DNA of 30,272 bases from a virus: positions 1 through 30,272 of IMG/VR virus record IMGVR_UViG_3300037835_000023; one strand, given 5' to 3'. Under the pieces are notes generated by a model, which saw only the letters and a list, made by a program, of their open reading frames with translations, was not told the origin of the DNA and ran no database searches. Every line of letters begins with the position of its first letter. Position 1 is the first letter of the stretch. Both the position numbers and the translations under genes were made by a program. Below are positions 2 through 27,095 of the stretch, piece by piece.

Positions 2-427
2 GCGGCGGCACGAACGCAGGTCACCATTGATGGCGCTTTGGGTGACTTTGGTCATCCTGAAGTAGTGCATGGACCCGGACAGGTTCTGCACTTTTGGAAT
101 ACGGTGACTAATAAACTGACCCCGAACGGTCTGAATAACTTCGGCATGGTGCGTGTGTCTTGTGTTGGACAGTCCACAGCAGCATCAGTGAACCGCTTTG
201 AGTTTGAGCTGGATGTTGGTGGTGGCACACCTCCTGTTATCTACCATGAGACCTCAGTGTTTGCGAAGGGTGCTGGCAACCCGCAGAGTTTCAACTTCAT
301 CATTCCATTGTTCTCTGGCGTTGACTTTCAGGCGAACGGTGGCACGTTCTACATCACGCCACTGGCTGACGCGACCTTCTGGGAATTTGCGATCACGTCA
401 GTGCAGATATATGGAGCTGCGCCTTGA
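2..427 (+). CDS. Virion structural protein, 5' truncated by window edge
   Basis: The reading frame is open from the first bases of the window, so the true start lies to the left; a TTG at 38 is in frame but is probably internal. About 141 residues are visible. They are rich in beta-forming segments, Gly, Thr and Asn, with no signal peptide or membrane segment. The fragment ends at a TGA that overlaps the TTG start of the next gene. I do not recognise the family. Its place directly before an adaptor gene in a late operon suggests a capsid-associated protein such as a decoration or head-fibre protein, but this rests on position and composition only. Confidence 0.7.
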   Translation, partial: AAARTQVTIDGALGDFGHPEVVHGPGQVLHFWNTVTNKLTPNGLNNFGMVRVSCVGQSTAASVNRFEFELDVGGGTPPVIYHETSVFAKGAGNPQSFNFIIPLFSGVDFQANGGTFYITPLADATFWEFAITSVQIYGAAP

Positions 428-1083
428 GCAATAAAACATATACTGAGTTGAGCGACAATCTTCAGGCATGGATGGAAGATGATGACCTCGAATTTCAAGG
501 GGCGATCGATGATCTGATCAATCTTGGTGAGATGCGTGCGTGGCGCGATCTCGACCTATCCATCTTCACATCAGAAAACACAGCACCAACTTCTAGTGGC
601 GTAGAGACAGTAACAAAGCCTGTTGCCGACACTGAGCTGGTGGTGACACAATCTATTTATTACGACAACGCAGGCGTGAGAACTTTTCTCGAACTGCGGT
701 CTACCGATTTCGTCAGGGATCATCAGGTGATAGGGGCAACAGCTCCACCTAAATACTACTCTGAACAGACTGAGACTGATTGGCTTCTCTCACCGATTCC
801 TGACGGGACTTATACACTTAACGCTCGTGGCGTGACGCGCCCAACGAGACTCTCTGTTGGTAATGCAACGACATGGTTATCACTGCATCAGGATGATCTG
901 CTCTTCAAGGCGTGCCTTGCTGAGTCAGAGAAGTTCCTGAAGGCTGATGATCGAGTTGAAGTATGGAAGACCGATTACACCGAGCTGCTGGTGATTGCAA
1001 AGAGAGAGACTTACGAGCTACTCAATCAACGATATAACCTGACACCCATGGAAGTGCCAGCGTCACCGACTAATCAGAGGTAA
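424..1083 (+). CDS. Head-tail adaptor (connector) protein, SU10-like
   Basis: This 219-residue protein starts at a TTG inside a TTGA overlap with the upstream stop, which indicates translational coupling. The N-terminal pattern (TYTELSDNLQAWMEDDD, then a helix with INLGEMRAWRDLDL) and the later LHQDDLLFKACLAESEKFLK segment resemble the podovirus adaptor family typified by phage SU10. Those proteins form a ring below the portal and join it to the tail nozzle. The length fits the family. The hub/nozzle gene three places downstream supports the role. The identification is by pattern memory and has not been checked by a search. Confidence 0.7.
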   Translation: MSNKTYTELSDNLQAWMEDDDLEFQGAIDDLINLGEMRAWRDLDLSIFTSENTAPTSSGVETVTKPVADTELVVTQSIYYDNAGVRTFLELRSTDFVRDHQVIGATAPPKYYSEQTETDWLLSPIPDGTYTLNARGVTRPTRLSVGNATTWLSLHQDDLLFKACLAESEKFLKADDRVEVWKTDYTELLVIAKRETYELLNQRYNLTPMEVPASPTNQR

Positions 1084-1950: not shown

Positions 1951-3161
1951 TGTGGCGCATACCAATCTCTCTTATCGGTGGTAGCGGAGTCTTTGATGTA
2001 GAACCAGAGATCGACACCTACATTGGCGACCTATGGGTATTTTTAGGCTCTCCGTCTGAACCAGTTGATGTCGTAGTCAGAGCAAACAATGTTGATCTTG
2101 CGGAAATAATCATCCCGGCTGATTTTGCTGCGGGTAGCACGTTCCAGTTTACCGCTACCAATAATGGACGCTTCATCGGAACAGGTGGTGCTGGTGGTGC
2201 TGGAGGTGACGATAACGGCAACCAAGGCACTAAGGGTGGTGGCGGTGGTAGCGGTGGACATGCAATTCAATCAGACACCTTCGCCGTTAATATTGATATT
2301 GATGACGGCTTCCTGCTCGGCGGTGGCGGTGGAGGTGGTGGTGGTAGTTTCAACGACACTGGTCTTGATGGTACTCCGGGCGGCGGTGGTGGCGGTGGCA
2401 TCGGTTGGGGTGATGCCGCTGGTGGCGCAGCAGGCTCTCCGACAGGCTCTCCGATAGCAACAGCTGGCACGGCAGGCACTCAGACCTCAGCAGGTGGTGG
2501 TGGAGCAGGTGGCACATCTGGCACTAACAATGGTGGTTCAGGGTCTGGCTATGGTTATGGCGGCACCTATGGTCAGTTTGCCAATCCATCCACAGGTATT
2601 ATTGGTGGTAGTGGGGCTGGTAACGGAGGTTCCGGTGGTAGAGCTGGAGCAGCCTTTTTCCCAGAGAACCTTGCGCCTCCTACATTCAATGGAGCGAAAT
2701 CAGAAGCAACTCTTCGTGCTGAATTACGCCTGAAGGGTGAGACTGATGGTGTTCTCAACCTTTTCGATATAACCAGTTTTGCCGTCATTGTCAGCTCTGG
2801 GACTGACACTGTTGGCTACGGGTTCTTGGCTGACAGCGGTGGTACTTTACAAAGAATAAATACTGAGAGCGGCAATCAGAATTTAACTACTTCGTGGTAT
2901 GACGGTAATTCCATCACTCCGGGCGACTACGAAGTACGAACGGTAGTTGGAACTGGTGGTCAAGTTTGGGACTTGACTGGAGCAGCTGATGGGACGTGGG
3001 TTGCACTATCAGTCCTTAAAACGTGGTCGGTTTCAGCTACAGATGTGCGTGATTCAGCATCCTCTCTATTTCAAATAAGAAGGGCTGGTGATACTGGTGG
3101 TGGTGATGAAGGGACGGCTGCATCTGCATTACTTATTGCCATTATAGAGTTCGAGCCGTAA
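1950..3161 (+). CDS. Glycine-rich tail fibre / adhesin-like protein
   Basis: The start is taken at the ATG in the TAATG junction at 1950, giving 403 residues; an in-frame upstream ATG at 1911 would overlap the previous gene by 40 bases. After a 75-residue N-terminal beta domain, residues about 75-235 consist largely of Gly with Ala, Ser and Thr, including runs of seven to nine Gly. This resembles the polyglycine helix region of T-even gp38-type adhesins and other Gly-rich phage tip proteins, where loops between glycine helices contact the receptor. The phrase SxFQFTATNNGRFIGTGG matches the entry into such regions. The C-terminal 165 residues are a separate beta-rich domain. It is probably a receptor-contacting fibre component. 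Low sequence complexity makes homology uncertain. Confidence 0.6.
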   Translation: MWRIPISLIGGSGVFDVEPEIDTYIGDLWVFLGSPSEPVDVVVRANNVDLAEIIIPADFAAGSTFQFTATNNGRFIGTGGAGGAGGDDNGNQGTKGGGGGSGGHAIQSDTFAVNIDIDDGFLLGGGGGGGGGSFNDTGLDGTPGGGGGGGIGWGDAAGGAAGSPTGSPIATAGTAGTQTSAGGGGAGGTSGTNNGGSGSGYGYGGTYGQFANPSTGIIGGSGAGNGGSGGRAGAAFFPENLAPPTFNGAKSEATLRAELRLKGETDGVLNLFDITSFAVIVSSGTDTVGYGFLADSGGTLQRINTESGNQNLTTSWYDGNSITPGDYEVRTVVGTGGQVWDLTGAADGTWVALSVLKTWSVSATDVRDSASSLFQIRRAGDTGGGDEGTAASALLIAIIEFEP

Positions 3162-5659
3162 TGACACAGAAAGCTGTCTTTAATTTACCGATTGGTGCTG
3201 GTCAATATACTGAGCAGTCTGAGCGCGGTGCTGTTGGTCGCTGGTTCTCGATGGACAAAGTGCGCTTCCGCAAAGGGCTGGCTGAGAAAATAGGTGGCTG
3301 GACAAAGGTTGAGCCACAGTTCATTGGCACCTGTCGTCGCTTGTTGGATTGGTCTTCGCTGGATGCCAAGCGCTGGTCTGCGATTGCTACCGACACCAAA
3401 CTGTATCTATGGCAGGACGGCACCCTCTTTGACATCACTCCGCTAAGGCACGTCTCAGAGCCTGTTAATGGTGGTCTTGGTCCTTTTGAGACCTTCACTG
3501 GTGAGACACGTGTGCAGGTTACTGACATAAATCATGGGTCGCAGCTTGGTGACTACGTAGAGTTCTCGAATGCTATTATCGGTGGAGCCAGTGGCCTTGA
3601 CTTCAATGGTGAGTACACGGTTGATCTGATCATTAATCCAAATCTCTATGAGGTAACCAATGCTGGTACAGCGGCTACTGGTGGTGCCAACGAAGGTGGC
3701 ACAGTGGTCAGGGCTGAGTATCAAATCACCATAGGAAAAGAGACCGCTGTCGCGGCTACTGGCTACGGCACAGGTCCGTATGGGCGTGAGGGCTACGGTA
3801 ACGAACGGACAGGATCAACACTGGTGCTGCCAATACGAACATGGTCCCTCGATACGTGGGGCGAAGACTTACTGTGCTGCCCACGTGGTGGACAAATGTA
3901 CTGGTGGGATCGCTCTAAAGGTACTGGCACAAGAGCCTCTCCATTTGGTGGTGACGCGCCACCCAACAATGAAGCAATGATCGTCTCGCAGCGAGACCGA
4001 CATGTGATCGCTCTGGGTGCGTTCGACTTCTTCAACAACGCCTTTGACCCGATGTTGATCCGATGGTGTTCCACTGAAGACCTGAATGATTGGGTGCCTA
4101 CCAGCACCAACACGTCAGGTGACCTCAGACTATACTCAGGCTCCAAAATCGTCACAGGCGTACGCTCACGGCTTGAGACGATCGTTTTCACGGATGTCAG
4201 CGTTCACACATTGCCGTTCTTTGGTGGCTTTGATGTCTTCGGTCTGAATACGGTCGGTGAGAACGTCTCCATACTGGGTCCGAACGCAGCAGTACCGATT
4301 GATGCTCGCGTAATCTTCATGGCTGAGTCTGACTTCTACATCTATGACGGTATTGTCAGGGTGCTACCGTGCGACGTACGCAACTGGGTGTACGACTTCA
4401 TTAATGTCGATCAGCGAGACAAGGTTTACGGTGGTCTGAATCGTGAGTTCAATGAGGTCTGGTTCTTCTACCCATCGTACGATCCACTGGCTTACGCGCA
4501 GCAACCGTTCGATCTGAGGTTACCATCGGGATTTTCTCTATCGCAGGGCAGCGGCACGATCGGATACGACTACGTATTCAACTCATCTGATGGATTTACA
4601 ACGCCAACTCGCACAGCAGATAATGGTTACGAGTACGATTACGTCCTGACCAATGATGAGCCAATCCTGACTCCGACAGAGTGTGAGTGGGCTGTAGAGT
4701 TTGCGTTTGATTCTCTTGGTGGTGGTGCTGAGCGGTGGGGTGGCATGGTGTTCCTGCGTACCGAGATCACAGGCACTCCTGACACTACCTCTGATGATGC
4801 TCAAGGCATCTACATTGAGGCTGACATCTTTACTGATACGATTCGCGTCAGGAAGAAGAACGCAAGCGGCGTGAAGAGCGTCTTGGATAATGATCCGGGC
4901 TTGGTTACGTTCACCGCAATATCGTCGGCAGCTGTAGTGGATACGAAGTACACACTAACGGTGCAGTTCGACACACCAAATCTTACCTTGTGGCTCGATG
5001 ACGTTCAGGTATGGCAGATTGCCTTATCTACTCCTGAGCTGGCGTTGTACACAGACGGTTCTGCTGGGCTTCATATGGAACCAGCGGCAACAGCTGTAAA
5101 TGCGTTCCGCTTCTACAACTTTGCAGTTGGTCCGGTTGGCGTACTGACTGCACAGAACTTTGACATCAGCCCGATTGAAGTGAATCGTTACGTGATGTAC
5201 AACTACGAAGAAGGCACGTGGGCTACTGGTATGCTGGCTCGTACAGCATGGGCAGATCGCTCACCCCAGTTTGAGAAAGCCTATGCAACTGGCGCTGACG
5301 GTTACCTGTATGAACATGAGACTGGCACCGATGCTGACGGCGTAGCGATGTCAAGCTATATCGAATCATTCGATATGGAGATACCGACCGCTGGTGAGGA
5401 ATTGATGCACGTAGACCAGCTTATCCCCGACTTCCTGACGCTCCAAGGTAGCGTTACTGTGAACCTGACGGGACGCAAATATCCAGCGGCTGACAGGATA
5501 ACGAAGGGACCGTACACGGTGGATGCCAACACAAGGAAGGTATCAACCAGAATACGTGCGCGGCAGGTTGCAGTTAAGGTCTCATCCTCTGATACCGGAG
5601 ACAAGTGGCGTATGGGCAACTGGAGGGGAAGAGCAGGACCACACGGTAAGCGCGGATGA
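3161..5659 (+). CDS. Tail hub/nozzle protein (P22 gp10-like) with inserted lectin-like domain
   Basis: This 832-residue protein is coupled to its neighbours by TAATG and ATGA junctions. It matches the pattern of the podovirus stabilisation/nozzle family: N-terminal RGAVGRWFSMDKVRFRKG and a GGW segment; a small beta insert at about 110-195 (INHGSQLGDYVEFS...FNGEYTV); then propeller-like strands such as FTDVSVHTLPFFGG and VIFMAESDFYIYDG; then EFNEVWFFYPS. After residue about 441 the expected continuation is interrupted by about 230 residues that look like a concanavalin-A/LamG fold (WAVEFAF, WGGMVFLR, KYTLTVQFD, LTLWLDDVQVW). The family pattern resumes at VNRYVMYNYEEGTW, LARTAWADR and GYLYEHETGTDADG. 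The protein probably closes the tail below the adaptor. Confidence 0.72.
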   Translation: MTQKAVFNLPIGAGQYTEQSERGAVGRWFSMDKVRFRKGLAEKIGGWTKVEPQFIGTCRRLLDWSSLDAKRWSAIATDTKLYLWQDGTLFDITPLRHVSEPVNGGLGPFETFTGETRVQVTDINHGSQLGDYVEFSNAIIGGASGLDFNGEYTVDLIINPNLYEVTNAGTAATGGANEGGTVVRAEYQITIGKETAVAATGYGTGPYGREGYGNERTGSTLVLPIRTWSLDTWGEDLLCCPRGGQMYWWDRSKGTGTRASPFGGDAPPNNEAMIVSQRDRHVIALGAFDFFNNAFDPMLIRWCSTEDLNDWVPTSTNTSGDLRLYSGSKIVTGVRSRLETIVFTDVSVHTLPFFGGFDVFGLNTVGENVSILGPNAAVPIDARVIFMAESDFYIYDGIVRVLPCDVRNWVYDFINVDQRDKVYGGLNREFNEVWFFYPSYDPLAYAQQPFDLRLPSGFSLSQGSGTIGYDYVFNSSDGFTTPTRTADNGYEYDYVLTNDEPILTPTECEWAVEFAFDSLGGGAERWGGMVFLRTEITGTPDTTSDDAQGIYIEADIFTDTIRVRKKNASGVKSVLDNDPGLVTFTAISSAAVVDTKYTLTVQFDTPNLTLWLDDVQVWQIALSTPELALYTDGSAGLHMEPAATAVNAFRFYNFAVGPVGVLTAQNFDISPIEVNRYVMYNYEEGTWATGMLARTAWADRSPQFEKAYATGADGYLYEHETGTDADGVAMSSYIESFDMEIPTAGEELMHVDQLIPDFLTLQGSVTVNLTGRKYPAADRITKGPYTVDANTRKVSTRIRARQVAVKVSSSDTGDKWRMGNWRGRAGPHGKRG

Positions 5660-12592: not shown

Positions 12593-13099
12593 ATGACTAC
12601 CATAAAGATCAGACAGGCTAAGCCCTTAGATGCTTCCAATATCGCTCGACTCTTGATCGAGTGCCATGAGGAAGGTAGCGCTTACCCACCAGTCGATCAC
12701 ACCATCGGACTTCGATGGATAACACGGACCCTAGAACATGGCTACGTTCTTGTAGCTGATGTGTCCGGCAGACTGGTGGGAACACTGGCTCTCACCAACT
12801 ATCAGTTTCCATGGTCACCCAAGTGGTACATGTACTTGGAGTGGCTCTATGTGCAGAATAAATTTCGTAAAGGTGGAGCATTCGAGGCGCTGTTGACAGC
12901 CACTCACGCTCACGCAGATGAAGTTGATGCACCGATAGTTGCCGGGGTATCGGCTGCTGATGCAAGGGTCATCTTGAAGGACAAGATGTTCCAACATCAC
13001 GGCTATAAATATCTCGGTGGCGACTTCATCAGGAGTGAAGCCAGTGGGCGGCAAGAAAACCAAGCAGACGGACACGTACACACCACCATCGTGGGTTGA
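12593..13099 (+). CDS. GNAT-family N-acetyltransferase
   Basis: The start at the ATG at 12593 is favoured because AGGGGG (12583-12588) sits just upstream and the protein then opens with the typical GNAT strand MTTIKIRQAKPLDASNIARLL; an earlier in-frame start is less likely. It is 168 residues, a normal single-domain length. The expected elements appear in order: strand GYVLVADVSGRLVGTLAL, then YMYLEWLYVQNKFRKGGAFEALL, the acetyl-CoA loop region. The loop keeps the Gly and Ala positions but has Phe where Gln/Arg is usual. A late HHGYKYLGGDFIR strand closes the fold. The substrate is unknown. It lies among virion genes, so it may act on a virion or host protein. Its 3' end overlaps the next gene by about 56 bases. 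Confidence 0.82.
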   Translation: MTTIKIRQAKPLDASNIARLLIECHEEGSAYPPVDHTIGLRWITRTLEHGYVLVADVSGRLVGTLALTNYQFPWSPKWYMYLEWLYVQNKFRKGGAFEALLTATHAHADEVDAPIVAGVSAADARVILKDKMFQHHGYKYLGGDFIRSEASGRQENQADGHVHTTIVG

Positions 13100-13922
13100 A
13101 AGTAACGCACAGCTTGCCAATCAGATTGGCAGCAGGATCGGCACCAAGGAATGGGAAGGCTATAGCGGCGAGCGTGTAGCAGGTCTATCTGAGAACGAGC
13201 AGATGGGTATGCAGCTGGCGCGTGACAATGTTGGCATAGCTCAGCCGTATTACGACAAAGCTGAAGGCGCTCTTGAGAGCGGGATGCAGTCGTGGGCTGA
13301 TGCCGACCAATCCAAATTCATAAACCCGTACATCAAAGGTGCATTGGACCCGGCAGCTCGTGAGATACGAGAGCAGGGCGCGAGAGATATTAACGCGCTT
13401 GAGGGTAGATCAGCGTCCATGAATGCCTTCGGTGGCAGTAGAGCGGCTCTGGCTCAGTCTGAGGCACGTAAGAACACCCTGCAAGGTGTCGAAGACCTGT
13501 ATGGCAAAGGTTACGCCGCTGCCTACGAGTTCGGCGCTCAGATATTCGGTGATGAACGTACTCGCGATCTGGAAGCGGCTGGTAGATTCCAGTTACTCGG
13601 TGGAGCAGTTCAGGACTCATCACAAACAGACATCTCCACCTTAATGACAACGGGCGCTACTGATCGCGGTATTCAACAGTCGATTGCAGATTTTGATTTT
13701 GCTCAATTCATGGAGGAACGAGACTGGGATTGGAAGCAGCTCGCAGGTGTTGTCTCTGCCCTTCAGGGTACTCATGGGTCGTACGGCACTACCTCCACCA
13801 GTGAGACCGAGCAGAGCGGTGGAGAAGGTATGCAAGCGCTTGGCATGATCGCACAGGTGGTCGCGGCTATGTATACAGGTGGAGCATCAACAGTAATAAC
13901 TGAAGGACCCATTGGCGGCTAA
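13044..13922 (+). CDS. Internal virion protein candidate
   Basis: The start is placed at GTG 13044 because AGGAG (13031-13035) is eight bases upstream; GTG codons at 13017 and 13035 are alternatives. The product is 292 residues. It opens with GGKKTKQTDTYTPPSWV and continues with SGERVAGLSENEQMGMQLARDNVG, then YIKGALDPAAREIREQGARD and a MNAFGGSRAALAQSEA segment. This is a pattern I have seen in podovirus proteins encoded next to internal (ejection) proteins. It is mainly helical and ends in a hydrophobic, Gly-rich segment (MIAQVVAAMYTGGAS) that could contact membrane. A role like that of T7 gp14 in building the ejection channel is an inference from position and composition. Confidence 0.6.
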   Translation: MGGKKTKQTDTYTPPSWVESNAQLANQIGSRIGTKEWEGYSGERVAGLSENEQMGMQLARDNVGIAQPYYDKAEGALESGMQSWADADQSKFINPYIKGALDPAAREIREQGARDINALEGRSASMNAFGGSRAALAQSEARKNTLQGVEDLYGKGYAAAYEFGAQIFGDERTRDLEAAGRFQLLGGAVQDSSQTDISTLMTTGATDRGIQQSIADFDFAQFMEERDWDWKQLAGVVSALQGTHGSYGTTSTSETEQSGGEGMQALGMIAQVVAAMYTGGASTVITEGPIGG

Positions 13923-15338: not shown

Positions 15339-18300
15339 GTGAGCGTATCGCGAGAGCAGATCGAACGAGCATTGGAGTCGGCTAAGCAGGATAATAACCA
15401 GTCAGCCGTCAGCGAGCTTCAGGGAATGTTGGAGTCTCAGCCAGCCGTACCAGCAGGGTATCAACCCGGAGCGCTGAGCACTGAGGTTGGCGGCATCGAT
15501 GCGCCGCCATTATCTCAGCCAACTGCGACTGAATCTGATATCGATTCATCTCTACAAGCTCGTCTCAATCCTGAGCCAGCACAGCCAAAACCAATGATGA
15601 ACGATCGTGAGCGAGGAATGGCTCAGGAAACGTATGACGCTGATATGGAGCTAGTGAAGAGCGGCGCTGCCAAACCGACACAAGATCAGCTCGATGAATT
15701 CATGGGTGCGAAGATGGGCAACACCCCATGGACTGATCCACTTGGTCGGCAGGTTGTTGTCGATCAGAAGACTGGTAAGGCACGTTGGTCTGCTCTGTCG
15801 CCTGACCAGATGGAAGAGTCTCTACGTCGTAAAGATCGAGGCAGCACAACAAAGGCAACGGCTGGTGCTATTGGTTATGGTGCCACTCGTGTTGGTGGTG
15901 CCCTGCTGGGTACTGCTGAAGCCGAGATATCACAGAACAATGCCTTCCAGCAGTTCCTACTGACAGGTGACAAGTCACTGCCAAAGTCTGAGCAAGATCG
16001 CATCATGGGGCTGGCACGCGAAAAGTACGGTGACGATGTTGACCCCGGATCAATCCCCGCTGGTCAGGTAAAGAAGTGGATCGACATGAACCCAGAGAAT
16101 GATCTGGCGTTCAGGAATATCGCTGGTGATGAATGGTGGGAAGAGCGCAAAGAGTTCGCTGCCAGACTGGGTAACCGCATTAGCTCAGTGGTCCCTCGTA
16201 TGCCAGTCAACCTCTTCGGTGCTGATGATCCCATTGGTGCGCTGACAGGTCAGGATGCGTACGAAGGTATTGACTACACTGGCAAGAGAGAGCCGTCATT
16301 CCCCGGTGCGTCAGAGATGATGCAAAGCTGGGAGTCAGATGCAGACAAGGGCACCGGAATCTATGAGGGTGTAATCCTGCCGCTTGTGAAGCGTGAAACT
16401 GGAAAGTCACCAGCACTACATGCGGAGGAGTTCTCAGAAGGATTCATTGACAAGTACTACGATGAAGAGCAGCTCGCTGAGAGAGAGATGCCGATCTTCT
16501 CTGGTGATGTGGAGATCAACAGCCTTGGCGACATCCTGAACTCCGATCTATACACGGACCCGAACAGTAAACTGATGAACCCTGAAGCGTTGTTCCTGAT
16601 GTTCATGGAAAACGCACCTGAGCTTGGCGTTAGTTTCGCCGTCACTCGTGGTGCTGGTGCTGCTGGTGCACGTGTTGGGGCACGTGGTGCTTACGGTCAG
16701 ACCGTTGAACGAATGAACAAGGCGCGTGAAACAGCAGCTGGTCGTAGTGGCATGTTGGCTGGTGGCGCAACAGAAGGCGTGCTGGTCCAGACTCATGTTG
16801 AGAATGAGACCCGGAAGATACTCGATCAGATTCCCATTGAACAATGGGAGAGCAACGAATCGTTTCTGGCGATGGTTGAGGCAGGCTTAACTCCAGAGGG
16901 CGCTAAACAAGTCCTCACACAGGAGAAGGCGAGCAAGGCTGGCACCAGTGCGGCTGTAGTCACCATGTTGTCTGGTGCTCCAATGAACCGACTGATGGCT
17001 AGGAGCGCAGCTGGTGAGTTGATGCAGAAAAATGTAGCGGCACGACGCACTGTCGGCGCACTCGGTGAGCCACTGACTGAAGGTGGTCAGGAAGTCATGG
17101 AGATGCTACAGACAGAAGCGGCTGTTCGTCCCATTGATCCAGACAACCCTATCTTCGCTGACCCGAATCGCTACTACGAAGCGTTCGGTGGTGGTGCTTT
17201 AATTTCAACTCCGTTTGGTATCTCTGGCGTAATGCAGCCCGGAGCACCAGTTGGTATTGATAAGGCAGACCTTGCTGCCATCAGGTCAACATCTAATTAC
17301 ATGAAGGCGACCAACGAGCGATTCAAATACGAAACCATGCTCTCCGATCCAGAGCATATTGCAGACACGTCACCGAACGAACGTCTTGCTGAGCTAAACA
17401 AACTTGAGAAGCTCCAGTTGGTAGAGTCAGAGTCGATCCTCAAGGCTGAACCCAGCATGAGGAAATTCCTTCAGAAGCAGAACACACGTACTGCTGAAGC
17501 CGAACTGAAGATGCTCAATCGCTTGGTGATGCGTGCGAACGCAATGAAGAACGACATCGCTGTTGCTCGATCAAAGCGCACTACGGCAATGGAGATGCGT
17601 GACGCTGAGCGTGAGGTGATGACGGATCGTGCTGAGCTTCAGAAAAAGGTCAACGATCAGGTCATTAAGCTCGAAGATATTCAGAGTCTTACCGCAGCAA
17701 TCGAGTCGGTACAGGAACTTGGTTCTGTCTCACCAGAGCAAGAGCAGTCTCTAATCAAAGAGGGATACGCGAGGCGATCAAAAGAAGGTCAGCTGGTAAT
17801 CTTGCCAAAGGGCAGGCGTGCCACGAAGGAGCTTAACCGACAGGCACGTGGGTTACAGGACCGTCTGGAGAAGGGTTTCACTGGAGATGAACGCAGGCAG
17901 GGTGAGAACCTCCTTAAGCGAGACTTAGTTGATTCCGCTGGTCCGGTTGAACGCGAGTCGATGCTGTATCAGGACAACCTGACTGGTGCACAGAACCGAA
18001 GAGCATTCAATGAGCGTCAGGAACATATAGACGTTCGCGAGGGTGATGAGAAGATAGAACGTGTTGGCGCAGCGCCAGCTATCGCTGCGGTTGATGTGGA
18101 CTCTCTGGCATGGGTGAACGACAACATGACTCACTCATCTGGAGATCGTTTGCTGGTAGCCGTCTCAGACGCGCTGAGCAAACAGAAGGGAGTAGAGGTC
18201 TTCAGGTTAGGTGGTGATGAGTTCGCCGTTACAGCAGCCTCTCAGGAGGCGTTGGAGACCGCTATGCAGGCAGCGGCAGCTGAACTTACAGAGACAGAGA

Positions 18301-21300
18301 TCATCGCTGGCGAAGATGTCGTTACACCGCAGATCACATGGGGTAAGGGCGAGACCTATGCTGAGGCTGACGCTGAATCCCTGACCATGAAAGATGATCG
18401 CACCTCTCGTGGTATTACCGCCAAACGCAAAGAGAAGGCAGCGACGTACAGGCACCGTGCTCAGCAGGGATTATTTCAACTGGACAGTGAGGCGGCTCTG
18501 CCACGTTATTGGCATCGAGTCAGAGGTCAGGTTGAACGTGGAGACAGCGTTGAAGTACTCACGCCTGATGGTGCGGTGCAGGGTGTAGTCACCAAGGTTA
18601 CGAATAAGCGCGACCGACCACGGTTGACAGTCAATATTCAGGGTAAGGACTTCCTGTTCAACCCACGAAGTAATCACCTGATTATTCCAAAGACAATGAG
18701 TCCTTCTGACCTCGCATGGATCACTGGTGATGCTGAGTACGCGCAACCCGATCGCGACACATTCCCGCAGGTGCTATCTGATGTCCAGATTGGACACCTT
18801 GGTAAGGATGGAAACTGGTACGCAGACCTTGCTGATGACTTTGAATATGAGTCACCAACACCGTGGTGGCAGGAGATGTACCCGCAACACAACTTCCATC
18901 CTCAAGTGCCGTTCATGCCAAAGGAGATGGAGGCATTACCATCTGAGATAGCGGTTGCTGAGACTGTTAAAGAATCAATATCTGATGGCATGGGAAATAT
19001 GCCTGAAGTTCATATTGTCAAGAGCATTAGCTGGCTGAAAAAGAATTACCCATCTGTGGTTGAGCAGATCAGGGATGAGCTGGTTGCGTCCGGTGGTAGC
19101 GGGTCATTCAGTGGCGTGCGCGGCTACATGGATCACATCAATCCTGAGAATGGCGTATTTATTTTTCCAGCACATATTGGTGGCATTGTTGGTGGTGAAA
19201 CCTACGAGCAAAACGTCTTGGAGACTGTTTATCACGAAGTGATTGGTCACTGGGGTGTTCGCGGTACTTTTGGTCATGAAGCAGCTCTACGACCATTCAT
19301 GAATGAAATCGTTGATGCCTTCCCTCGGTTATCTGATTTCTACTCAAGCACCCTCAGTTTGGATAAGAATAATCCAGAGCAGAAGCAGGTGCTCGGTGAA
19401 GAAATGGTTGCTTACCTTGCTGGTCAGGTTAAGGCCGGGAAGATTTCTTTTAATGACAAACAAAGAAACCTCTGGCAGCGCTTCATCGCATGGATAAAAG
19501 AATTCATGGTTCGCAGGAGGCTGGATAGATTTTCTCCTGTGAAAAAGATGGTCACCTTGCATGACAGTAAGGAGGTCTTCTGGAATGACGACCGGGTACA
19601 GGACTTACTGGCTCATTCGAGAAACTTTGTACGTCATGCCAACGGCATCAGCTGGACACCATTGAGTGAGTCTGTTGAGACCTTTATGCGTGACGGCGAG
19701 ATGTTTCAAGCTGGCTTCATTACAGCAATGAAGACTGCAACATTTAAGCCCAGCAACCGAGAAAAGAATGAGCTGGCGAAGCGTTACGGTGGCAAGGAAA
19801 ATGTACCTAGCGAAGTGCCGATGTTCCCTGATGACGCTAGTCCGAATGCATGGAAGCAGCTCATCATTAAGGCGCAGAAAGATAACTGGATGACTGGGCG
19901 AGAGATAGAGTTGTCCGGCCTCAGTGATAAAGCAAACTTCAGTCTGTTCCGTGATGGCACCTACGGCACGCTGGAGCGATACATGCGTCAGCTCAACAAC
20001 GGTTTCATGATGCCAAGATGGTATCAAGGGATTGTTCCTGCTGATGTAGCAGCAGAGCTTGATGCAATTAATGATGCGATAGAGAAGAACCATATCGAAG
20101 GTCCTCTCGCAGCTTCAGGGAGTCAGCGCGGAGAAACTGGTCTGGAATACGAGATAGTGGCTCGCCCATCAGTCAATGAGGTCAGCGCCGAACTCATGCG
20201 TACTCGTATCGCAGAGATCATGTCGCAGAAAATGAACCCAAAGAAGACGCGACTGACGAAAGAATTAATGATGGCTCACATGCTGTCTGAGAATGCCTAC
20301 CGAGTCTTTGTTGAGAAGCAGGGTGGTCATCCGGGCATTACTCTTACACAGGCACAAGAAAAGCTGTTCGGTACATTAACAACTGAGGAAGTAGACGCTC
20401 TTACCAACGAACAGATGCAGATGGTTAAAGATGAGGTGAAGCGAACCAGAGATAAGGGCTATGACATTGGCTACGATCGTGACACAGATCGCTGGTTGGA
20501 TTGGGCGGCTCACACCACGGAATATTCAGAGTGGTCACCACAAGGTTCTCGAACAAATAGAGACTTTCGTGTCACTCTAATCAAGAGTGAAGGTGCTGGT
20601 GGGGAGATGGGTTACACCGGACACTATGATCCAAATATCATGCACGTCAGGACTGGTGTTGCTGAGCTTCTTAACTGGGATGGTATGCCAGAGCTTGAGT
20701 ATCCGAACCCGGCTATGAAGGGTCAGATGTTATCACTCATCGAGCTTCAGTCTGATTGGTTACAGAAGCTGCGTAAGGGTTTCAGTAGTCGTGGCAGTAG
20801 GGATGAGGCAACTGAAAGTGCGCAAGAAAAACGCACTCTCCTTAACATGGTTGGCGATCAACTTGGTCGTGGAATATCTGAAGATGTATGGGCTGTTGTT
20901 GAGTCATCAATTATGCCGATCATTGACCTTACTGATGGCACAACTGGCAAGGAGAATGACAGCTCTCCATTATTCGCTGAGATGCAACAGCTTGCAGTCA
21001 CTGATACTGGCAACTCTTGGGAGACCCTTTCTCCTGACCAGAAGCGTGAGGTCTGGAAGAAGTTCACCGTTCAGAAGTTCGACCTTATTCGTGAAAACTT
21101 CACTGTGGCAAGAAACAGACTTATAGAATACGCAGATAGTATGCCGAAGATAACCGATCTTGCCGGGTCAATGGACGCTCGTGCTTTTCAGGCTCTTGAT
21201 GCGTATGCCGCTAAAAGGGTATCGAACGCAATGCTACTGGAGTTCGAGCGACTCACAGATAGAATACAGAACAACTTGCGTTACGCCGATACCCAAGTTG

Positions 21301-24300
21301 AAATGGAAGCATTTCGCGACATCATACAGCGCAATCATGGTAAGGCGTTTGATCGTTTGGCAAGCAATAGTGATTACGATGAGGGGCTTCGGTTGCCAAT
21401 GGCTGAGTATCTGCTCAGACCTATGCTTGAGATTACGTATGATGCGATCGGTGCTGATGAGACCAAAGTCGCAGAGCGTATGTCGGGGCTTAAGACTCGC
21501 GAGATGGCAACCGTTCGGGTTCCAAACACTGTGTTACTGGATTTGAATACTGCCATGACTGGCAGGTGGGACCCAGTTCATCTAATGAATGAGATGATGT
21601 CTGCCAGCCGTATTAGCAGGCACAGCGATATCGCTCCGGGTGGCTTGAGTCTTACGGCTGTAAGTGCTGGTGATGAGTTCGTTGATGTCAAAGTTGTTGG
21701 TAATAAAGCGGATGTCAGTAAGGCGCAGGATTTAATTCCCAAGCTGATTGAAACGTGGGTAGAAGACCATGGTGCTGAGAAAAGAAGCATCAACATACGG
21801 GAGAGAGCCAACCGCACCATCAGTCAGGATGTTGATGGCGACTACTCATTCAGTGAGCTGGAGAGCGAGTTTGATCTTGAAGAAGAAGATACCTCTGGCG
21901 AGCAAACAGAAGCGATGCGTGACGAAGGAGTTGAGAGCTTCTATAGTTTTGAGGAAGATCAGCTGAGCGATATTGAGATGGAGCTTGTCAATTATGCCTT
22001 TGAGAATATGTCTGAGGGAGATTGGGATGAACAAGAACAGTATCACGAGGGTGTAAGTAGGCAGGGTGATACATATCGTGGTGAAGTCGAAATTGACGCA
22101 GACGGTGATGTTGACAATGCCGATGCAGAGGACAACCTGAACGAAGCGAGGGATGAGTACCGTACTGATGTGCTGTTTCAGGATGATGACATCCGTCAGC
22201 AGGCATCTGATCAGCTCCGCGAGCAATGGGACGAGCGTGGAGAGACAGCCCTGATTAAAGGACAGTTGCCGATAGCATGGGATGAGGACGGTAACTCAAT
22301 CAATTCCGTTGAAATTATGATACGGGCACAGGACCCCGGTGACGCTTACGATATGTATATCGATGGGTCAGAAGAGGACTATGAGTCCGACCTTGAAACA
22401 GCCAAAGAAAACCTATCTAATATCATCAAGGAATATTATCGCAACGAGAGTATTCGCCCACCACCCGGTGCATTCTTCGGTCCTTCCGATGAAGTTGTTG
22501 CTGAGCGTGAAGAGCAGACAGAAGACTCCAATCCTCCGAATTGGGATATCGTCAAAGGCAATATTTCAGAGAACCTATCCATGATGAGCGATCAAGCTCA
22601 GAAGATGGATAAGGTTTATGAAGAACTCGTGGTGCTTAATAAGCGACTTAGCTATGGTGAGATTCACAAAGAGAGTCCTGTAGGAAAAGATGAGCAGTGG
22701 AGACCGCTGGCGCTGAAGTACCTGATCTCTGATGCGGTTCGTCGTGGACTTGGTGGGGTGATGTGGAACAACGGACTGTCATCGTCTACTCGTGGTGGCA
22801 TGGGCCAGTCTGGCGTTAGATCGACAGAGCGAATCACATGGAGTAAGGAAAAGATTGGCATCCGTGGTGAGGAGCAAGAGGTCTATGTTATTCGCTATGC
22901 AGAGTCAGTTAAGCCAATGGTTGTTTCTCGAAACTCAATGATTCCTGTTCTTGGATCGGATGTAGCTCGCCTGATTTACATGCAGGAAAACGGCAAGCTG
23001 GAAGTTCCTTCTGCTACCCCTACAGAAGTTGCTGAGGCTCCAAGCGCTCGTGACGGTTACATCGTTGCTGACACAGACACCGACACAAGGGCGATATATC
23101 GCAGAAGCACGAATGGATTCGTTGGATTTGCAAGCAGTGAAGAAGCCATTGATACGCTTATATCTAATGACAGAATTCACAACCCGGATACGTCCACCAT
23201 GGCTGGAGAGCAGGCAATGGATACAGCCGAGCCTCTTGGTGAGGTGGTGTCTAAGGGTGTGATTGATGAGGCTATGGCTGGTGGAAAAATTCACGTCATG
23301 GTTGGCGATAGAACAAGATCGTACGCGGCAACTTTTTCACGTCCCAGACTTGCTGGAGCGAGGCAGTCTTACGAAGACATCACGGTTCGCATGTGGAATA
23401 AAGAACTGAAGAAGTATGGTGTTCACATTAGCGACACCTTCGTCAAAGCCAAGGACATGAATAAAGCGATGACTGAAGAAGGTCAGGCATCCATGAAGTC
23501 GCCTAAGCGGGACGCTCAGATCGCTGAAGAGCACGGTCGTTTGTATCTCGCTGAGGTTACTGGTGGTATGCATAACTGGGTGGTCATGAGTGAAAAGAAA
23601 GGACCAGTCGTTAATGACGTGTTCACTGACCGTGATTTTGCACAAACCAGACTGACTAATTACATTGAAGAAAACTTTGGCAGTGATGCCGAAGGTGTGC
23701 AGGTCATGTACTTCCCTATCAATGAAAAGATGCGGGAAGAGTTTAGTGGTCCGGTTGCTCCATTCCATTACGATCCAACTCAAGACCCAGCCATGAAGTC
23801 TGCTGCCGAGAAGATTGGCTATAAGAAGAAGCCCTTAAGGGAGCGCTTCAATGAGTGGCGTATGGGCGCTCGTGCCGAAGCTACGCAGGGCGCACTTGAT
23901 CAATTCCATGGACTGAAGAAAGCACTTAATGAGGCTGGTCAGAGTGATGGTGCGTACATCAGCGCTCGACTAACAACCTCTCTCGAATCCATGATGAAGG
24001 CTGTTCTAAATTACGGTCACCCAGTATGGAAGGACGGTATTGTTCAGAACGAAGGTAAGGGCTTACTCGACATCTTCCAGCCGATCCTGAATGATCCTGA
24101 CACGTGGGGTCTGTACATGGCTGGCAAGCGTGCCAAGGGTCTTATGATGGAAGGCTATGCCTCACTCGAACCAGAGATGAGAGCAAAGATTGATGCTGCC
24201 GCGAAACAGTTTGGCACTGGGCCTGATAGCGTGTTCGAGGTGCTGGTGAAGTATCAGGCTATGGAGCTTTACGATCATGTTGAAGTTCAGGCAGGTGACC

Positions 24301-27095
24301 TGACCAATAGTGAGCGAGCTTCGCTGTCGAAGATTGAGAGTAAGTTCTGGGCTGACTTCCTACCACATACCAAGCGCGACATGCAGCCGAAGAAAGGTAG
24401 CACAACGAAGGCACCGGGTGGACGCTGGCAGATATTCGACTGGCGCGTACCGAGCCAACGAAACACGCAGAAGAACATCGACTCCAAGTACAGGATGGCG
24501 ACTAAGGCGCTCATGGGTCGTGGCTATAAAGTTAAGAGCGAAGCAGACGCACGCAAGATCGTGGACAGGCTTACCGATTTGGCACTGACGAAACAGCAGC
24601 AGTCGAACGCTATGCGTGAGGTTCGGGTGCAGTCCAGTAAGGCAGCAGCGGCAGTAATTAGTAACGGTCGCGAGCATCTGTTTGAGGCACCAGAGATCAA
24701 GTCGATGGCTGCTCTGGGTGATAAGTTCCAGCACTTCAAGCGCGTTGCAAAAGACTATGCAGCGTTCAACAAGAAGATGCTCGACTTCGCGGTTGAGTCT
24801 GGGATTATCGATCCAGAGGGAAGGTCTTTATGGGAGAACGCTGACTACGTACCGTTCTACCGGGTAGATGATAATAGACTCTCTGGCTCTGGTATGTCAC
24901 CTACCGCTGGCATCGCAAATCAACGGTCTCCAATCAGAAGATTACGTGGCGCTGATAACAGGATGGGCGACATCATGGGCAACATCATGATGAACATGAC
25001 CAAGCTGGTTGATGCATCTGTAAAGAATAATGCTGCGGTAGAGTCGGTTGATGCACTTCGCGGCTCAGGAATTATCTCCAAGAAACCGATGGAGTGGAAA
25101 CCTGAAATGATACCCATGAGCCAGATGAAGAAAGTGCTGATCGACAAAGGTGTAATTGTTGCAGAGGATAAAGAGGGCATCCACCTCAGTGACATCCCTG
25201 AAGAAGCGCTGACTGGAATGCAGAAGATGTTCGCCATGAAGGCACCGGAAGGTGATGGCGTTATCAGCATCATGCGAGATGGCAAGAGAGAGTATTACTA
25301 CACTGACGACATGCTGCTGTATCGATCAATGGCTTCAATAAACAAGAAGCACTTCGGTGCATGGATGGCATTATTCAGTGCGCCGAAGCGGCTGCTGACT
25401 ACGATGATAACGATTGATCCTGCGTTCATGATTTCCAACTTTATTCGTGACACAGGGTCTGCCTTTGTTATCGGTAGGGACAAGGGCAACCTCCCTGTAC
25501 TGTCAGCTATCAAGGGATTCAATCAGGCGCTACTGGAAGACGAAACCATGCGTACCTTGGTGGGTGCTGGTTCCGCATTTGAGAACGGCTACATCACTGC
25601 TGGTGATCCGCGTAAGACAAAGAAAATGCTTAAGGCTGCAATGAAGAAGCGTAGCTTTGTGAACTCAGTCCTTGACTCTCCATTCAAACTGGGAAGGGCA
25701 TGGTTGCACCTCGGTTCGTCCATTGAAAACTCAAACCGTATAGCGGTATATAACGCTGCGATTGCGGCAGGCAAATCGAAGAAGCAAGCCGTGTTTGAAG
25801 CGAAAGACCTAATGGATTTCTCCATGGGTGGCGATTACCCAACCGTAAGGTTCCTAATACAAAGCGTTCCATTTATGAACGCTCGTGCACAGGGCACCTA
25901 TCGTCTTGGTCGGGGCATGAATGAGAACCCGAAGAGCTTCTCCATGAAGGGGATGCTGGTTGGGTTGGCTGGCATGGCTCTGTATCTTTCCTTCAAGGAT
26001 GATCCGCGTTACGAAGCTCTGGAGATATGGGATAAGCAGGCTTACTTTCATTGGTGGATTGGTGACGTTCATTATCGTTTGCCAAAACCGTTTGAGGTTG
26101 GTGCTATCTTCAACACCATTCCTGAGATGTTTGTTGCTTACGCTTACAACAAAGAGACTGATGATGGTAAGACCTTGATGAAAGAGTTCGGGCACATGAT
26201 TGCTCAGACCTTCTCGATGAGTCCAGTACCGCAGACGATTGCACCGCTTCGTGAGATGAACAACAACTGGAATTACTTCACGAAACGACCGATCGTCAGT
26301 TACTACGAAGAGAAGCGATTACCTCCTGACCAGTACAGAACCAGAACCAGTCCAACATTTATTGAGTTGGCGAAGCGTCTGCCCTCTGGTCTGGATACAG
26401 TCAGTGGCAAGATTCGGTCACCACTGCATCTTCAGAACCTGTATGCCGGGTATACCGGAACCATCGGTCGATACATGCTTCAGGGTGCTGACTGGATTAC
26501 TGAGCGAGCGCTTGATTATCCACTGCCTCCGTCACCAGAGATACAGGATTATGCTGTGCTCGGCAGGTTCATGCGCGGAGATAACCCACCTCGTAGAACC
26601 AAGTACGAGACCGAGGTCTATAAGCTGTTGGAGAAGACGACAATGATTCAGGGGTCGCTCAGCTTCCACGAGAAGAGCGGCAACGTCGATGAGTACCTTT
26701 CCACCAACGAAGAGTACCTGCCGTACATCCAAGCGGCTGAGGCACTGAACACTGTTCGCGAGAATATTCAGGAAGTAAATAAAGCCATCATGGCGATCAC
26801 CAAAGACCCTGAGAAAGATCGGGACCTTAAGCAAAAGGAGATCGATGAGCTTGAAGAGACTCGAAACTTCTTATTCAAAGAAGGCTGGAAGCTCCGACCG
26901 GGCGGCGAATACAATCCCAAGGTCGAGCCAGTTACTGAGAACCAGATCATGGACCTTATCGATAACTGGGGAGTCGATACTTCTGTTGCGTCACGCATAA
27001 AGAAAGATGCTCCTGACACTCATGGGTTGCTGGAGATGGTCAACAACGATATGTCTAAAAACAACCTCACTTCACTCGCTAGGGTTAATAAATAA
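15339..27095 (+). CDS. Giant polyvalent virion protein with GGDEF and zincin domains
   Basis: This is a 3918-residue protein with a GTG start. Approximate order by residue: short helical N-terminus; Gly/Ala-rich, potentially membrane-active region 420-635; coiled coil 690-790; GGDEF (diguanylate cyclase-like) domain 875-1010; small SH3-like segment 1060-1115; HExxH zinc-peptidase region 1224-1375 (HEVIGH, H1299-H1304); a phage polyvalent module beginning near 1504 with YSEW (about 1730) and IELQSDW (W1807), completed after an approximately 645-residue insert by WRPLALKYL (2454) and a KYGVHI-type segment (about 2690); helical module from 2834; a region resembling LPD38 (large polyvalent protein associated domain 38) at about 3326-3613; helical C-terminus. 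Such giants are known in podoviruses and are thought to be packaged and delivered with DNA. Processing and delivery are inferred. Confidence 0.8.
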   Translation: MSVSREQIERALESAKQDNNQSAVSELQGMLESQPAVPAGYQPGALSTEVGGIDAPPLSQPTATESDIDSSLQARLNPEPAQPKPMMNDRERGMAQETYDADMELVKSGAAKPTQDQLDEFMGAKMGNTPWTDPLGRQVVVDQKTGKARWSALSPDQMEESLRRKDRGSTTKATAGAIGYGATRVGGALLGTAEAEISQNNAFQQFLLTGDKSLPKSEQDRIMGLAREKYGDDVDPGSIPAGQVKKWIDMNPENDLAFRNIAGDEWWEERKEFAARLGNRISSVVPRMPVNLFGADDPIGALTGQDAYEGIDYTGKREPSFPGASEMMQSWESDADKGTGIYEGVILPLVKRETGKSPALHAEEFSEGFIDKYYDEEQLAEREMPIFSGDVEINSLGDILNSDLYTDPNSKLMNPEALFLMFMENAPELGVSFAVTRGAGAAGARVGARGAYGQTVERMNKARETAAGRSGMLAGGATEGVLVQTHVENETRKILDQIPIEQWESNESFLAMVEAGLTPEGAKQVLTQEKASKAGTSAAVVTMLSGAPMNRLMARSAAGELMQKNVAARRTVGALGEPLTEGGQEVMEMLQTEAAVRPIDPDNPIFADPNRYYEAFGGGALISTPFGISGVMQPGAPVGIDKADLAAIRSTSNYMKATNERFKYETMLSDPEHIADTSPNERLAELNKLEKLQLVESESILKAEPSMRKFLQKQNTRTAEAELKMLNRLVMRANAMKNDIAVARSKRTTAMEMRDAEREVMTDRAELQKKVNDQVIKLEDIQSLTAAIESVQELGSVSPEQEQSLIKEGYARRSKEGQLVILPKGRRATKELNRQARGLQDRLEKGFTGDERRQGENLLKRDLVDSAGPVERESMLYQDNLTGAQNRRAFNERQEHIDVREGDEKIERVGAAPAIAAVDVDSLAWVNDNMTHSSGDRLLVAVSDALSKQKGVEVFRLGGDEFAVTAASQEALETAMQAAAAELTETEIIAGEDVVTPQITWGKGETYAEADAESLTMKDDRTSRGITAKRKEKAATYRHRAQQGLFQLDSEAALPRYWHRVRGQVERGDSVEVLTPDGAVQGVVTKVTNKRDRPRLTVNIQGKDFLFNPRSNHLIIPKTMSPSDLAWITGDAEYAQPDRDTFPQVLSDVQIGHLGKDGNWYADLADDFEYESPTPWWQEMYPQHNFHPQVPFMPKEMEALPSEIAVAETVKESISDGMGNMPEVHIVKSISWLKKNYPSVVEQIRDELVASGGSGSFSGVRGYMDHINPENGVFIFPAHIGGIVGGETYEQNVLETVYHEVIGHWGVRGTFGHEAALRPFMNEIVDAFPRLSDFYSSTLSLDKNNPEQKQVLGEEMVAYLAGQVKAGKISFNDKQRNLWQRFIAWIKEFMVRRRLDRFSPVKKMVTLHDSKEVFWNDDRVQDLLAHSRNFVRHANGISWTPLSESVETFMRDGEMFQAGFITAMKTATFKPSNREKNELAKRYGGKENVPSEVPMFPDDASPNAWKQLIIKAQKDNWMTGREIELSGLSDKANFSLFRDGTYGTLERYMRQLNNGFMMPRWYQGIVPADVAAELDAINDAIEKNHIEGPLAASGSQRGETGLEYEIVARPSVNEVSAELMRTRIAEIMSQKMNPKKTRLTKELMMAHMLSENAYRVFVEKQGGHPGITLTQAQEKLFGTLTTEEVDALTNEQMQMVKDEVKRTRDKGYDIGYDRDTDRWLDWAAHTTEYSEWSPQGSRTNRDFRVTLIKSEGAGGEMGYTGHYDPNIMHVRTGVAELLNWDGMPELEYPNPAMKGQMLSLIELQSDWLQKLRKGFSSRGSRDEATESAQEKRTLLNMVGDQLGRGISEDVWAVVESSIMPIIDLTDGTTGKENDSSPLFAEMQQLAVTDTGNSWETLSPDQKREVWKKFTVQKFDLIRENFTVARNRLIEYADSMPKITDLAGSMDARAFQALDAYAAKRVSNAMLLEFERLTDRIQNNLRYADTQVEMEAFRDIIQRNHGKAFDRLASNSDYDEGLRLPMAEYLLRPMLEITYDAIGADETKVAERMSGLKTREMATVRVPNTVLLDLNTAMTGRWDPVHLMNEMMSASRISRHSDIAPGGLSLTAVSAGDEFVDVKVVGNKADVSKAQDLIPKLIETWVEDHGAEKRSINIRERANRTISQDVDGDYSFSELESEFDLEEEDTSGEQTEAMRDEGVESFYSFEEDQLSDIEMELVNYAFENMSEGDWDEQEQYHEGVSRQGDTYRGEVEIDADGDVDNADAEDNLNEARDEYRTDVLFQDDDIRQQASDQLREQWDERGETALIKGQLPIAWDEDGNSINSVEIMIRAQDPGDAYDMYIDGSEEDYESDLETAKENLSNIIKEYYRNESIRPPPGAFFGPSDEVVAEREEQTEDSNPPNWDIVKGNISENLSMMSDQAQKMDKVYEELVVLNKRLSYGEIHKESPVGKDEQWRPLALKYLISDAVRRGLGGVMWNNGLSSSTRGGMGQSGVRSTERITWSKEKIGIRGEEQEVYVIRYAESVKPMVVSRNSMIPVLGSDVARLIYMQENGKLEVPSATPTEVAEAPSARDGYIVADTDTDTRAIYRRSTNGFVGFASSEEAIDTLISNDRIHNPDTSTMAGEQAMDTAEPLGEVVSKGVIDEAMAGGKIHVMVGDRTRSYAATFSRPRLAGARQSYEDITVRMWNKELKKYGVHISDTFVKAKDMNKAMTEEGQASMKSPKRDAQIAEEHGRLYLAEVTGGMHNWVVMSEKKGPVVNDVFTDRDFAQTRLTNYIEENFGSDAEGVQVMYFPINEKMREEFSGPVAPFHYDPTQDPAMKSAAEKIGYKKKPLRERFNEWRMGARAEATQGALDQFHGLKKALNEAGQSDGAYISARLTTSLESMMKAVLNYGHPVWKDGIVQNEGKGLLDIFQPILNDPDTWGLYMAGKRAKGLMMEGYASLEPEMRAKIDAAAKQFGTGPDSVFEVLVKYQAMELYDHVEVQAGDLTNSERASLSKIESKFWADFLPHTKRDMQPKKGSTTKAPGGRWQIFDWRVPSQRNTQKNIDSKYRMATKALMGRGYKVKSEADARKIVDRLTDLALTKQQQSNAMREVRVQSSKAAAAVISNGREHLFEAPEIKSMAALGDKFQHFKRVAKDYAAFNKKMLDFAVESGIIDPEGRSLWENADYVPFYRVDDNRLSGSGMSPTAGIANQRSPIRRLRGADNRMGDIMGNIMMNMTKLVDASVKNNAAVESVDALRGSGIISKKPMEWKPEMIPMSQMKKVLIDKGVIVAEDKEGIHLSDIPEEALTGMQKMFAMKAPEGDGVISIMRDGKREYYYTDDMLLYRSMASINKKHFGAWMALFSAPKRLLTTMITIDPAFMISNFIRDTGSAFVIGRDKGNLPVLSAIKGFNQALLEDETMRTLVGAGSAFENGYITAGDPRKTKKMLKAAMKKRSFVNSVLDSPFKLGRAWLHLGSSIENSNRIAVYNAAIAAGKSKKQAVFEAKDLMDFSMGGDYPTVRFLIQSVPFMNARAQGTYRLGRGMNENPKSFSMKGMLVGLAGMALYLSFKDDPRYEALEIWDKQAYFHWWIGDVHYRLPKPFEVGAIFNTIPEMFVAYAYNKETDDGKTLMKEFGHMIAQTFSMSPVPQTIAPLREMNNNWNYFTKRPIVSYYEEKRLPPDQYRTRTSPTFIELAKRLPSGLDTVSGKIRSPLHLQNLYAGYTGTIGRYMLQGADWITERALDYPLPPSPEIQDYAVLGRFMRGDNPPRRTKYETEVYKLLEKTTMIQGSLSFHEKSGNVDEYLSTNEEYLPYIQAAEALNTVRENIQEVNKAIMAITKDPEKDRDLKQKEIDELEETRNFLFKEGWKLRPGGEYNPKVEPVTENQIMDLIDNWGVDTSVASRIKKDAPDTHGLLEMVNNDMSKNNLTSLARVNK
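17961..18370 (+). other. GGDEF domain within the giant protein
   Basis: Residues about 875-1010 of the giant follow the diguanylate cyclase signature in order: DNLTGAQNRRAF; AAVDVDSLAWVND with D919, D921, N927 and D928; H932 and GD (G935-D936); FRLGGDEFAV with the exact GGDEF motif at 958-962; then ITWGKG and a degenerate ADA...K...G end. Metal- and GTP-contacting positions therefore look retained. Differences are Leu-Ala in place of the usual Phe-Lys after the DxD, and Thr for Gly before H932. The usual RxxD inhibitory site ahead of GGDEF is replaced by KQKG, so product feedback is probably absent. Confidence 0.82.

Follow-up and report, generated by a model that had tools for sequence, protein, structure and literature searches.

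Phage GGDEF Domains and Their Closest Described Relatives

GGDEF domains in phage polyvalent proteins were described by Iyer et al. in 2017, with a prediction that they interfere with cyclic-nucleotide signaling (PMC5512222). The domain considered here lies in a virus record of 30,272 bases (IMGVR_UViG_3300037835_000023, positions 1 to 30,272, hereafter the window), within a giant polyvalent-type open reading frame (ORF) of 3,918 amino acids (aa) that begins at a GTG codon and stays open across 3,918 codons (15339..27095, + strand, as are the domains and motifs within it). The example given by Iyer et al., Acetonema longum WP_004096050.1, resembles it in that a GGDEF domain lies in a giant multi-enzyme protein for which injection is predicted, together with a metallopeptidase, which is putative in the window's giant. 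The window's giant differs from their polyvalent proteins in that it carries the large polyvalent protein associated domain 38 (LPD38) and, in a Pfam scan, no methyltransferase, helicase, or ART domain. The idea of an injected GGDEF domain is already in print in outline in the 2017 paper, the accessible text of which calls polyvalent GGDEF domains not very widespread and reports no phage-specific GGDEF group, loss of the RxxD feedback site, or adjacency of GGDEF to a pyrophosphatase (InPase) domain. Within the literature searched, these three features, the last of them seen in relatives of the window's giant, appear to be new.

Phage YuA (gp44) and Vojvodinavirus encode short GGDEF proteins that fall in the same tree group as the window's domain, but these are about 150 aa long and lie outside the virion genes, whereas the window's domain is part of a giant. 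YuA gp44 is annotated as “contains diguanylate-cyclase domain; putative role in host cell conversion”. The YIP peptides of PB1-like Pseudomonas phages are phage products that raise host cyclic diguanylate (c-di-GMP) and lower motility; they bind the host cyclase YfiN, and the accessible part of the source mentions no GGDEF enzyme of their own (PMC9145820). A literature search on phage-encoded diguanylate cyclases found only a review on these peptides. The bacterial cyclases PleD, WspR, DosC, and SiaD share the fold and most active-site residues with the window's domain, which differs from them by the absence of RxxD, the replacement of K332 (PleD numbering), and a different end after the K442 helix in alignment A2, described below. 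The N4 virion RNA polymerase-type giants, in the descriptions available in part, are comparable as giant ORFs that lie in a virion gene context and have a putative metallopeptidase motif, but the Pfam scan of the window's giant finds no RNA polymerase domain, nor any recognised sensor domain.

Identity of the GGDEF Domain

On profile and model evidence, the stretch at aa 877-1003 (17967..18356), in the N-terminal third of the giant, is a true GGDEF domain of good quality. Pfam GGDEF (PF00990) matches it with an E-value of 4.3e-10 and a score of 40 bits, above the cut-off of 23.8, and the GGDEF family scores 46.3 bits within the virus's own record. At E ≤ 0.001, a five-row profile (the window, one 100% copy, and three relatives) retrieves 35 distinct sequences from the PDB, mostly titled GGDEF or diguanylate cyclase, with the remainder titled response or motility regulators or uncharacterised proteins.

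Relatives were collected from IMG/VR as four loci found with the window's domain and then 31 loci found with a five-row alignment. Alignment A2, which served as AlphaFold input, combines the window with 26 of these 31; the five omitted are L008, whose domain is 100% identical to that of the window, and L015, L029, L033, and L035, which are duplicate, cut, or short. The resulting model of aa 853-1052 (17895-18494) has a mean pLDDT of 86.9 and a pTM of 0.81 and matches diguanylate cyclases. Foldseek returns 95 PDB matches at E ≤ 0.001 (best E 5.7e-10), and the 50 of them that were listed are GGDEF-domain proteins, some of which (WspR/PA3702, SadC, and PleD) are not titled as such. VIA-align gives its best match to 3ign (Z 16.9, root-mean-square deviation (rmsd) 2.0 over 138) and aligns the model to PleD 2v0n with Z 15.0 and rmsd 2.6 over 140; the 50 listed rows (Z 13.9-16.9) are GGDEF-domain proteins, again not all of them so titled. 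The initial annotation had called the domain near-canonical on the basis of its motifs, and both the clear profile match and the superposition on PleD bear this out. The alternative that the motif arose by chance in some unrelated fold has no supporting point, is contradicted by the Pfam, PDB profile, AlphaFold, Foldseek, and VIA results, and was rejected, its probability being close to nil.

Among viral proteins, the best matches in a viral structure library are an unnamed 1,143-aa entry, a GGDEF protein of Bordetella phage CN1, and gp350 of Bacillus phage G. Seven PHROG families overlap the domain at E < 0.01 (5594, 14602, 11823, 8342, 9661, 26035, and 34213), and all are labelled “unknown function”. 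Among deposited phages, a near-match search found no DNA-level match to the giant, and 74 records match the domain at the protein level, each with less than 60% identity.

Active-Site Residues and the Missing Feedback Site

The PleD catalytic checklist, as given in the accessible text of its source, comprises D327, K332, N335, D344, position 370, K442, and R446 (PMC6629876). The window's domain contains a DxLT..NRR motif (aa 879-888, 17973..18002), D919-V-D921 as the equivalents of the metal residues D327/D329 (18093..18101), N927-D928, H932, and G935-D936 with the guanine contacts corresponding to N335 and D344 (18117..18146), the GGDEF signature at aa 958-962 (18210..18224), and K1018, the K442 equivalent, followed by R1021 (18390..18401). 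The DxD pair, the N927-D928, H932, and G935-D936 residues, and the GGDEF signature are thus all where the initial annotation had read them. In the pocket for guanosine triphosphate (GTP) and metal, on which that annotation had made its reading depend, the metal residues (D919 and D960, the latter at position 370) and both guanine residues (N927 and D936) are present, and the K332 lysine is lost to A924 (18108..18110); neither this replacement nor the arginine that comes one residue early (R1021) had been recorded there. Because A924 stands at the K332 place, we class the stretch as a GGDEF domain and treat cyclase activity as a prediction, albeit a likely one.

In the set of 33 phage rows, to which the window belongs, D327, N335, and positions 370 and 371 are each conserved in 33/33, K442 in 32/33, and an arginine near the R446 place in 30/33. 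The K332 place is more variable in phages (24 rows with K, six with A, and three with G) than in the bacterial rows, where it is K in 46/46; the latter otherwise keep D327, N335, and D344 in 45 rows each, position 371 in 46, and K442 in 44 (two gaps). The hairpin motif of the phage rows is SGDEF in 21, GGDEF in 11, and QGDEF in one, and SGDEF and AGDEF enzymes with activity have been described (PMC3974145, accessible part). An N or T occupies the D344 place in five loci (L013, L014, L021, L036, and L037), which may reflect a shift in base preference.

Where an RxxD feedback site would lie (aa 949-952, 18183..18194), the window reads QKGV, and the absence of the site, noted in the initial annotation, is confirmed. 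By alignment column, RxxD occurs in 0/33 rows labelled giant and 0/5 shorter phage-type rows; it is present in 27/46 bacterial rows and missing in 19/46. The share quoted for GGDEF proteins generally is about 53% in the part of the source available (PMC3974145).

A Phage Group of GGDEF Domains

On sequence evidence, phage GGDEF domains appear with moderate support to form a group of their own, apart from the bacterial rows. In a quick maximum-likelihood tree of 85 rows, computed without bootstrap, a branch with an SH-aLRT of 92, below the tree's own mark of 95, separates 33 giant-labelled and five shorter phage rows from the 46 bacterial rows and phage G gp350; many inner forks are open. The tree omits L212, L221, L228, the permuted L166, and near-copies such as L063 and L064. 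Its shorter phage rows are YuA, MW2, L038, L210, and L213, the last two from Acidobacteria assemblies. The row labels are approximate: the “giant” L026 spans just 637 aa, L031 lacks its 5′ end, and the “stand-alone” L213 has an 811-aa frame.

The patterns used for recruitment contain WVNDN and so partly select for N335, D336, and the tryptophan; 16 bacterial rows that were also recruited with WVNDN are nonetheless placed outside the phage group in the tree. A hairpin set and an LPD38 set serve as controls for this selection, and they overlap the earlier loci in 22/71 hairpin contigs and in 6/11 GGDEF-bearing LPD38 contigs. A scan with the SGDEF hairpin region alone yields 71 loci, 67 of which lie in frames of at least 1,000 aa; of 45 complete frames, 32 reach at least 2,000 aa. 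Eight loci, among them some that are spaced differently and have VD for GD, do not match the pattern used for counting. The 63 that fit it show D327 in 63/63, D344 in 56/63, and no RxxD in 62/63, counts that lean high because the pattern demanded N335 and G343 and the best-scoring candidate was taken.

The LPD38 set consists of 70 giants recruited by the C-terminal part alone. A GGDEF domain is present in 11/11 of those whose C-terminal part reaches 48% identity or more with that of the window; among these, L057 is 100% identical to the window in this part, and L062 and L063 give identical figures. In four relatives, mean identity to the window is 74% in the GGDEF core and 55% in the rest of the giant, and the core shows 2.1-2.7-fold lower nonsynonymous divergence (dN) than the rest (L009, L207, and L010). 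Synonymous divergence (dS), calculated with window positions 17967-18413 as the core, is also lower there, at 0.97 (L009), 1.05 (L207), and 1.8 (L010) against 2.5, 2.4, and 3.3 in the rest, all values near or past saturation. The giant as a whole is, by these sequence comparisons, under purifying selection. The lower dS of the core may reflect domain exchange by recombination or extra constraint.

In L166 (frame from locus base 632, aa 925-1098), the GGDEF domain is apparently circularly permuted, the SGDEF hairpin preceding the DxD...ND motif, with InPase adjoining. L132 (IMGVR_UViG_3300037851_001498) is a giant whose single polypeptide joins GGDEF to InPase, DUF6908, and a helicase pair of the strawberry-notch type.

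Pyrophosphatase Beside GGDEF in Relatives

An InPase domain adjoins GGDEF by Pfam in three related giants (L019, L032, and L132). In the hairpin set, InPase is found in 15/71 loci; in 14/15 it lies within 170 aa of GGDEF, on either side, and in 10/15 within 100 aa. After clustering at 60% identity, 10/11 lie within 170 aa against 34% under a position-matched null (p 1e-4), the 170-aa limit having been picked after the gaps were seen, and 6/11 within 100 aa against 23% (p 0.02). A first, smaller count, which has loci in common with the hairpin set, gave 6/7 within 100 aa against a position-matched null of 25%, with L019 and L023 being sisters. InPase occurs in 11/50 hairpin clusters and in 5/59 LPD38 giants without GGDEF; at p 0.06, enrichment of InPase is not shown, and what stands out is its distance to GGDEF. 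InPase is itself very common in phage giants, with at least 510 relatives, and GGDEF is present in 2/80 of the InPase loci fetched.

A cyclase frees two pyrophosphates per product, and a functional link between InPase and GGDEF is this report's own reading of the adjacency. The accessible text of Iyer et al. suggests for InPase domains that they may clear pyrophosphate from the nucleotide processing of replication or transcription (PMC5512222).

The Giant ORF and Its Neighborhood

Complete homologous ORFs have 3,941, 3,955, 4,262, and 3,947 aa (L009-L012) and 3,998 aa (L207). LPD38 lies near the C-terminus of the window's giant (aa 3555-3738, 26001..26552, Pfam E 6.8e-34), and a putative zincin-type metallopeptidase region follows the GGDEF domain (18846..19568, with HEVIGH at 19233-19250 and GEEM at 19395-19406). 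The H, E, H, and EE residues of this region are invariant in 5/5 sequences; its AlphaFold model has a pLDDT of 75.6, and its best VIA matches, a conserved hypothetical protein (Z 5.9) and a predicted zincin (Z 5.2), are both weak. A phage search with aa 1222-1621, which contain the HExxH motif, gave no match, and the PADLOC defence models match none of aa 1-837, 838-1064, and 1065-1954. In L011, about 250 extra residues separate the GGDEF motif from the HExxH motif, the span running from aa 1004 to 1593 compared with 976 to 1312 in L009.

Upstream of the giant lie genes for a protein of phrog_4287, described as a DNA ejection protein (13017..13922, E 5.8e-15), a virion structural protein of phrog_3287 (3161..5659, E 4.1e-64), and an SU10 adaptor protein (424..1083, E 5e-20) that also matches the virion structural family phrog_2941, all on the + strand. 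The giant gene is thus placed among virion genes of the ejection, structural, and head-tail adaptor types. Several unrelated domains, the hallmark of polyvalent proteins, are present in the form of GGDEF and LPD38 by Pfam together with the conserved HExxH region. From LPD38, the HExxH region, and the neighboring ejection-family and virion genes, the giant ORF is identified as a phage polyvalent protein. The virion-type character proposed in the initial annotation agrees with this context, and packaging and ejection are inferred from gene neighborhood and domain company. A literature search for large polyvalent proteins in virion mass spectrometry found no paper.

Proposed Function and Alternative Explanations

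The initial interpretation held that a giant delivered with the DNA could raise host c-di-GMP at once, without gene expression; it is partly supported, plausible, and not new in outline. In its present form, the window would encode a constitutive GGDEF cyclase of a phage lineage that is ejected with the DNA as part of a polyvalent giant, and we consider the chances for and against this, with its predicted activity and delivery, to be evenly balanced. The giant would be packed in the head and ejected with the DNA, perhaps being freed by cleavage through its own HExxH region. Its GGDEF domain would then pair with a second copy and convert host GTP to c-di-GMP without feedback, and the host would move to low motility, an altered surface or envelope, or disturbed c-di-GMP-linked responses. 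This shift would precede any phage gene expression, such that a phage with an active and injected enzyme could reset a global host signal at the onset of infection without transcription. A broader proposal, that phages own a lineage of feedback-blind cyclases in virion giants, repeatedly beside a pyrophosphatase, that would inject a second-messenger pulse before expression, is more doubtful and is offered tentatively. Together, the phage group, the missing off-switch, and the InPase neighbor of some members turn a short prediction from 2017 into a testable enzyme family.

Several observations weigh against an ejected, active cyclase in the window. A924 replaces the phosphate-side checklist lysine K332, R1021 sits at K+3 whereas PleD R446 sits at K+4, and the D344 place of the 33 phage rows is D in 28, N in 3, and T in 2. 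GGDEF is found in 0/59 LPD38 giants at 40% identity or less, some of them truncated, and since none of these more distant giants carries one, the domain is accessory. The dN/dS ratios are 0.10, 0.13, and 0.09 in the core versus 0.11, 0.12, and 0.11 in the rest (L009, L207, and L010, respectively), and as they are alike, with dS near or past saturation, they do not demonstrate stronger selection on the core than on the whole giant. No InPase is present in the window's giant or in L009-L012; the InPase adjacency therefore concerns the family, not the window's giant. Regarding delivery, the giant of PTXU04 is 28% identical to the window's giant in the C-terminal part, and the four PTXU04 virion bands identified by mass fingerprinting, as reported in the accessible text, do not include the giant (PMC6563267). 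Diguanylate cyclases act as dimers, which would require more than one copy of the giant. Higher flagellar motility is not the usual effect of high c-di-GMP. Bordetella phage LK3 has a related small gene, and its lysogens show increased biofilm and also increased flagellar motility in the part of the study available (PMC8471281).

The loss of K332 and the shifted arginine would also fit a domain that binds GTP without making c-di-GMP and serves as a GTP-sensing or structural module, as degenerate, non-catalytic GGDEF domains are known from the available text of PMC3974145. Against such a module stand the metal residues, GDEF, and the K442 equivalent, which are invariant or nearly so in 33 divergent rows, and the InPase adjacency in relatives, and we regard it as rather unlikely. 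An active domain that works late in the infected cell or in lysogens, and is not injected, is a less probable alternative. The tree group does include short proteins outside the structural block, such as YuA gp44 (156 aa), and LK3 lysogens are reported to be hyperbiofilm formers (PMC8471281), to which the phage's gene of this type may contribute; the window's giant, on the other hand, is located among virion genes, adjoins an ejection-family protein, and has LPD38.

A different product, for example cyclic GMP-AMP (cGAMP) or a linear nucleotide, might be suspected from the N or T at the D344 place in 5/33 phage rows and from the palm fold common to Cas10 and the ATP-using Panoptes enzymes (PMC12657218, accessible part). 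The window itself keeps both guanine residues, N927 and D936, which makes such a product quite improbable here. The preferred reading remains that of an ejected GGDEF cyclase producing c-di-GMP.

Host and Additional Features of the Window

The closest organism-named record is L207, a 65-kb contig in a Desulfuromonadales assembly with 72% identity in the domain. A Desulfuromonadales host is only a hint, as this contig may be a binned free phage. The assembly contains 19 GGDEF matches, i.e., 18 in addition to that of L207. A GNAT acetyltransferase gene is also located upstream of the giant, as is a 2,010-aa ORF (window 5656-11688) that contains repeated motifs as well as a tandem repeat of 36 bases at 8410-8503.

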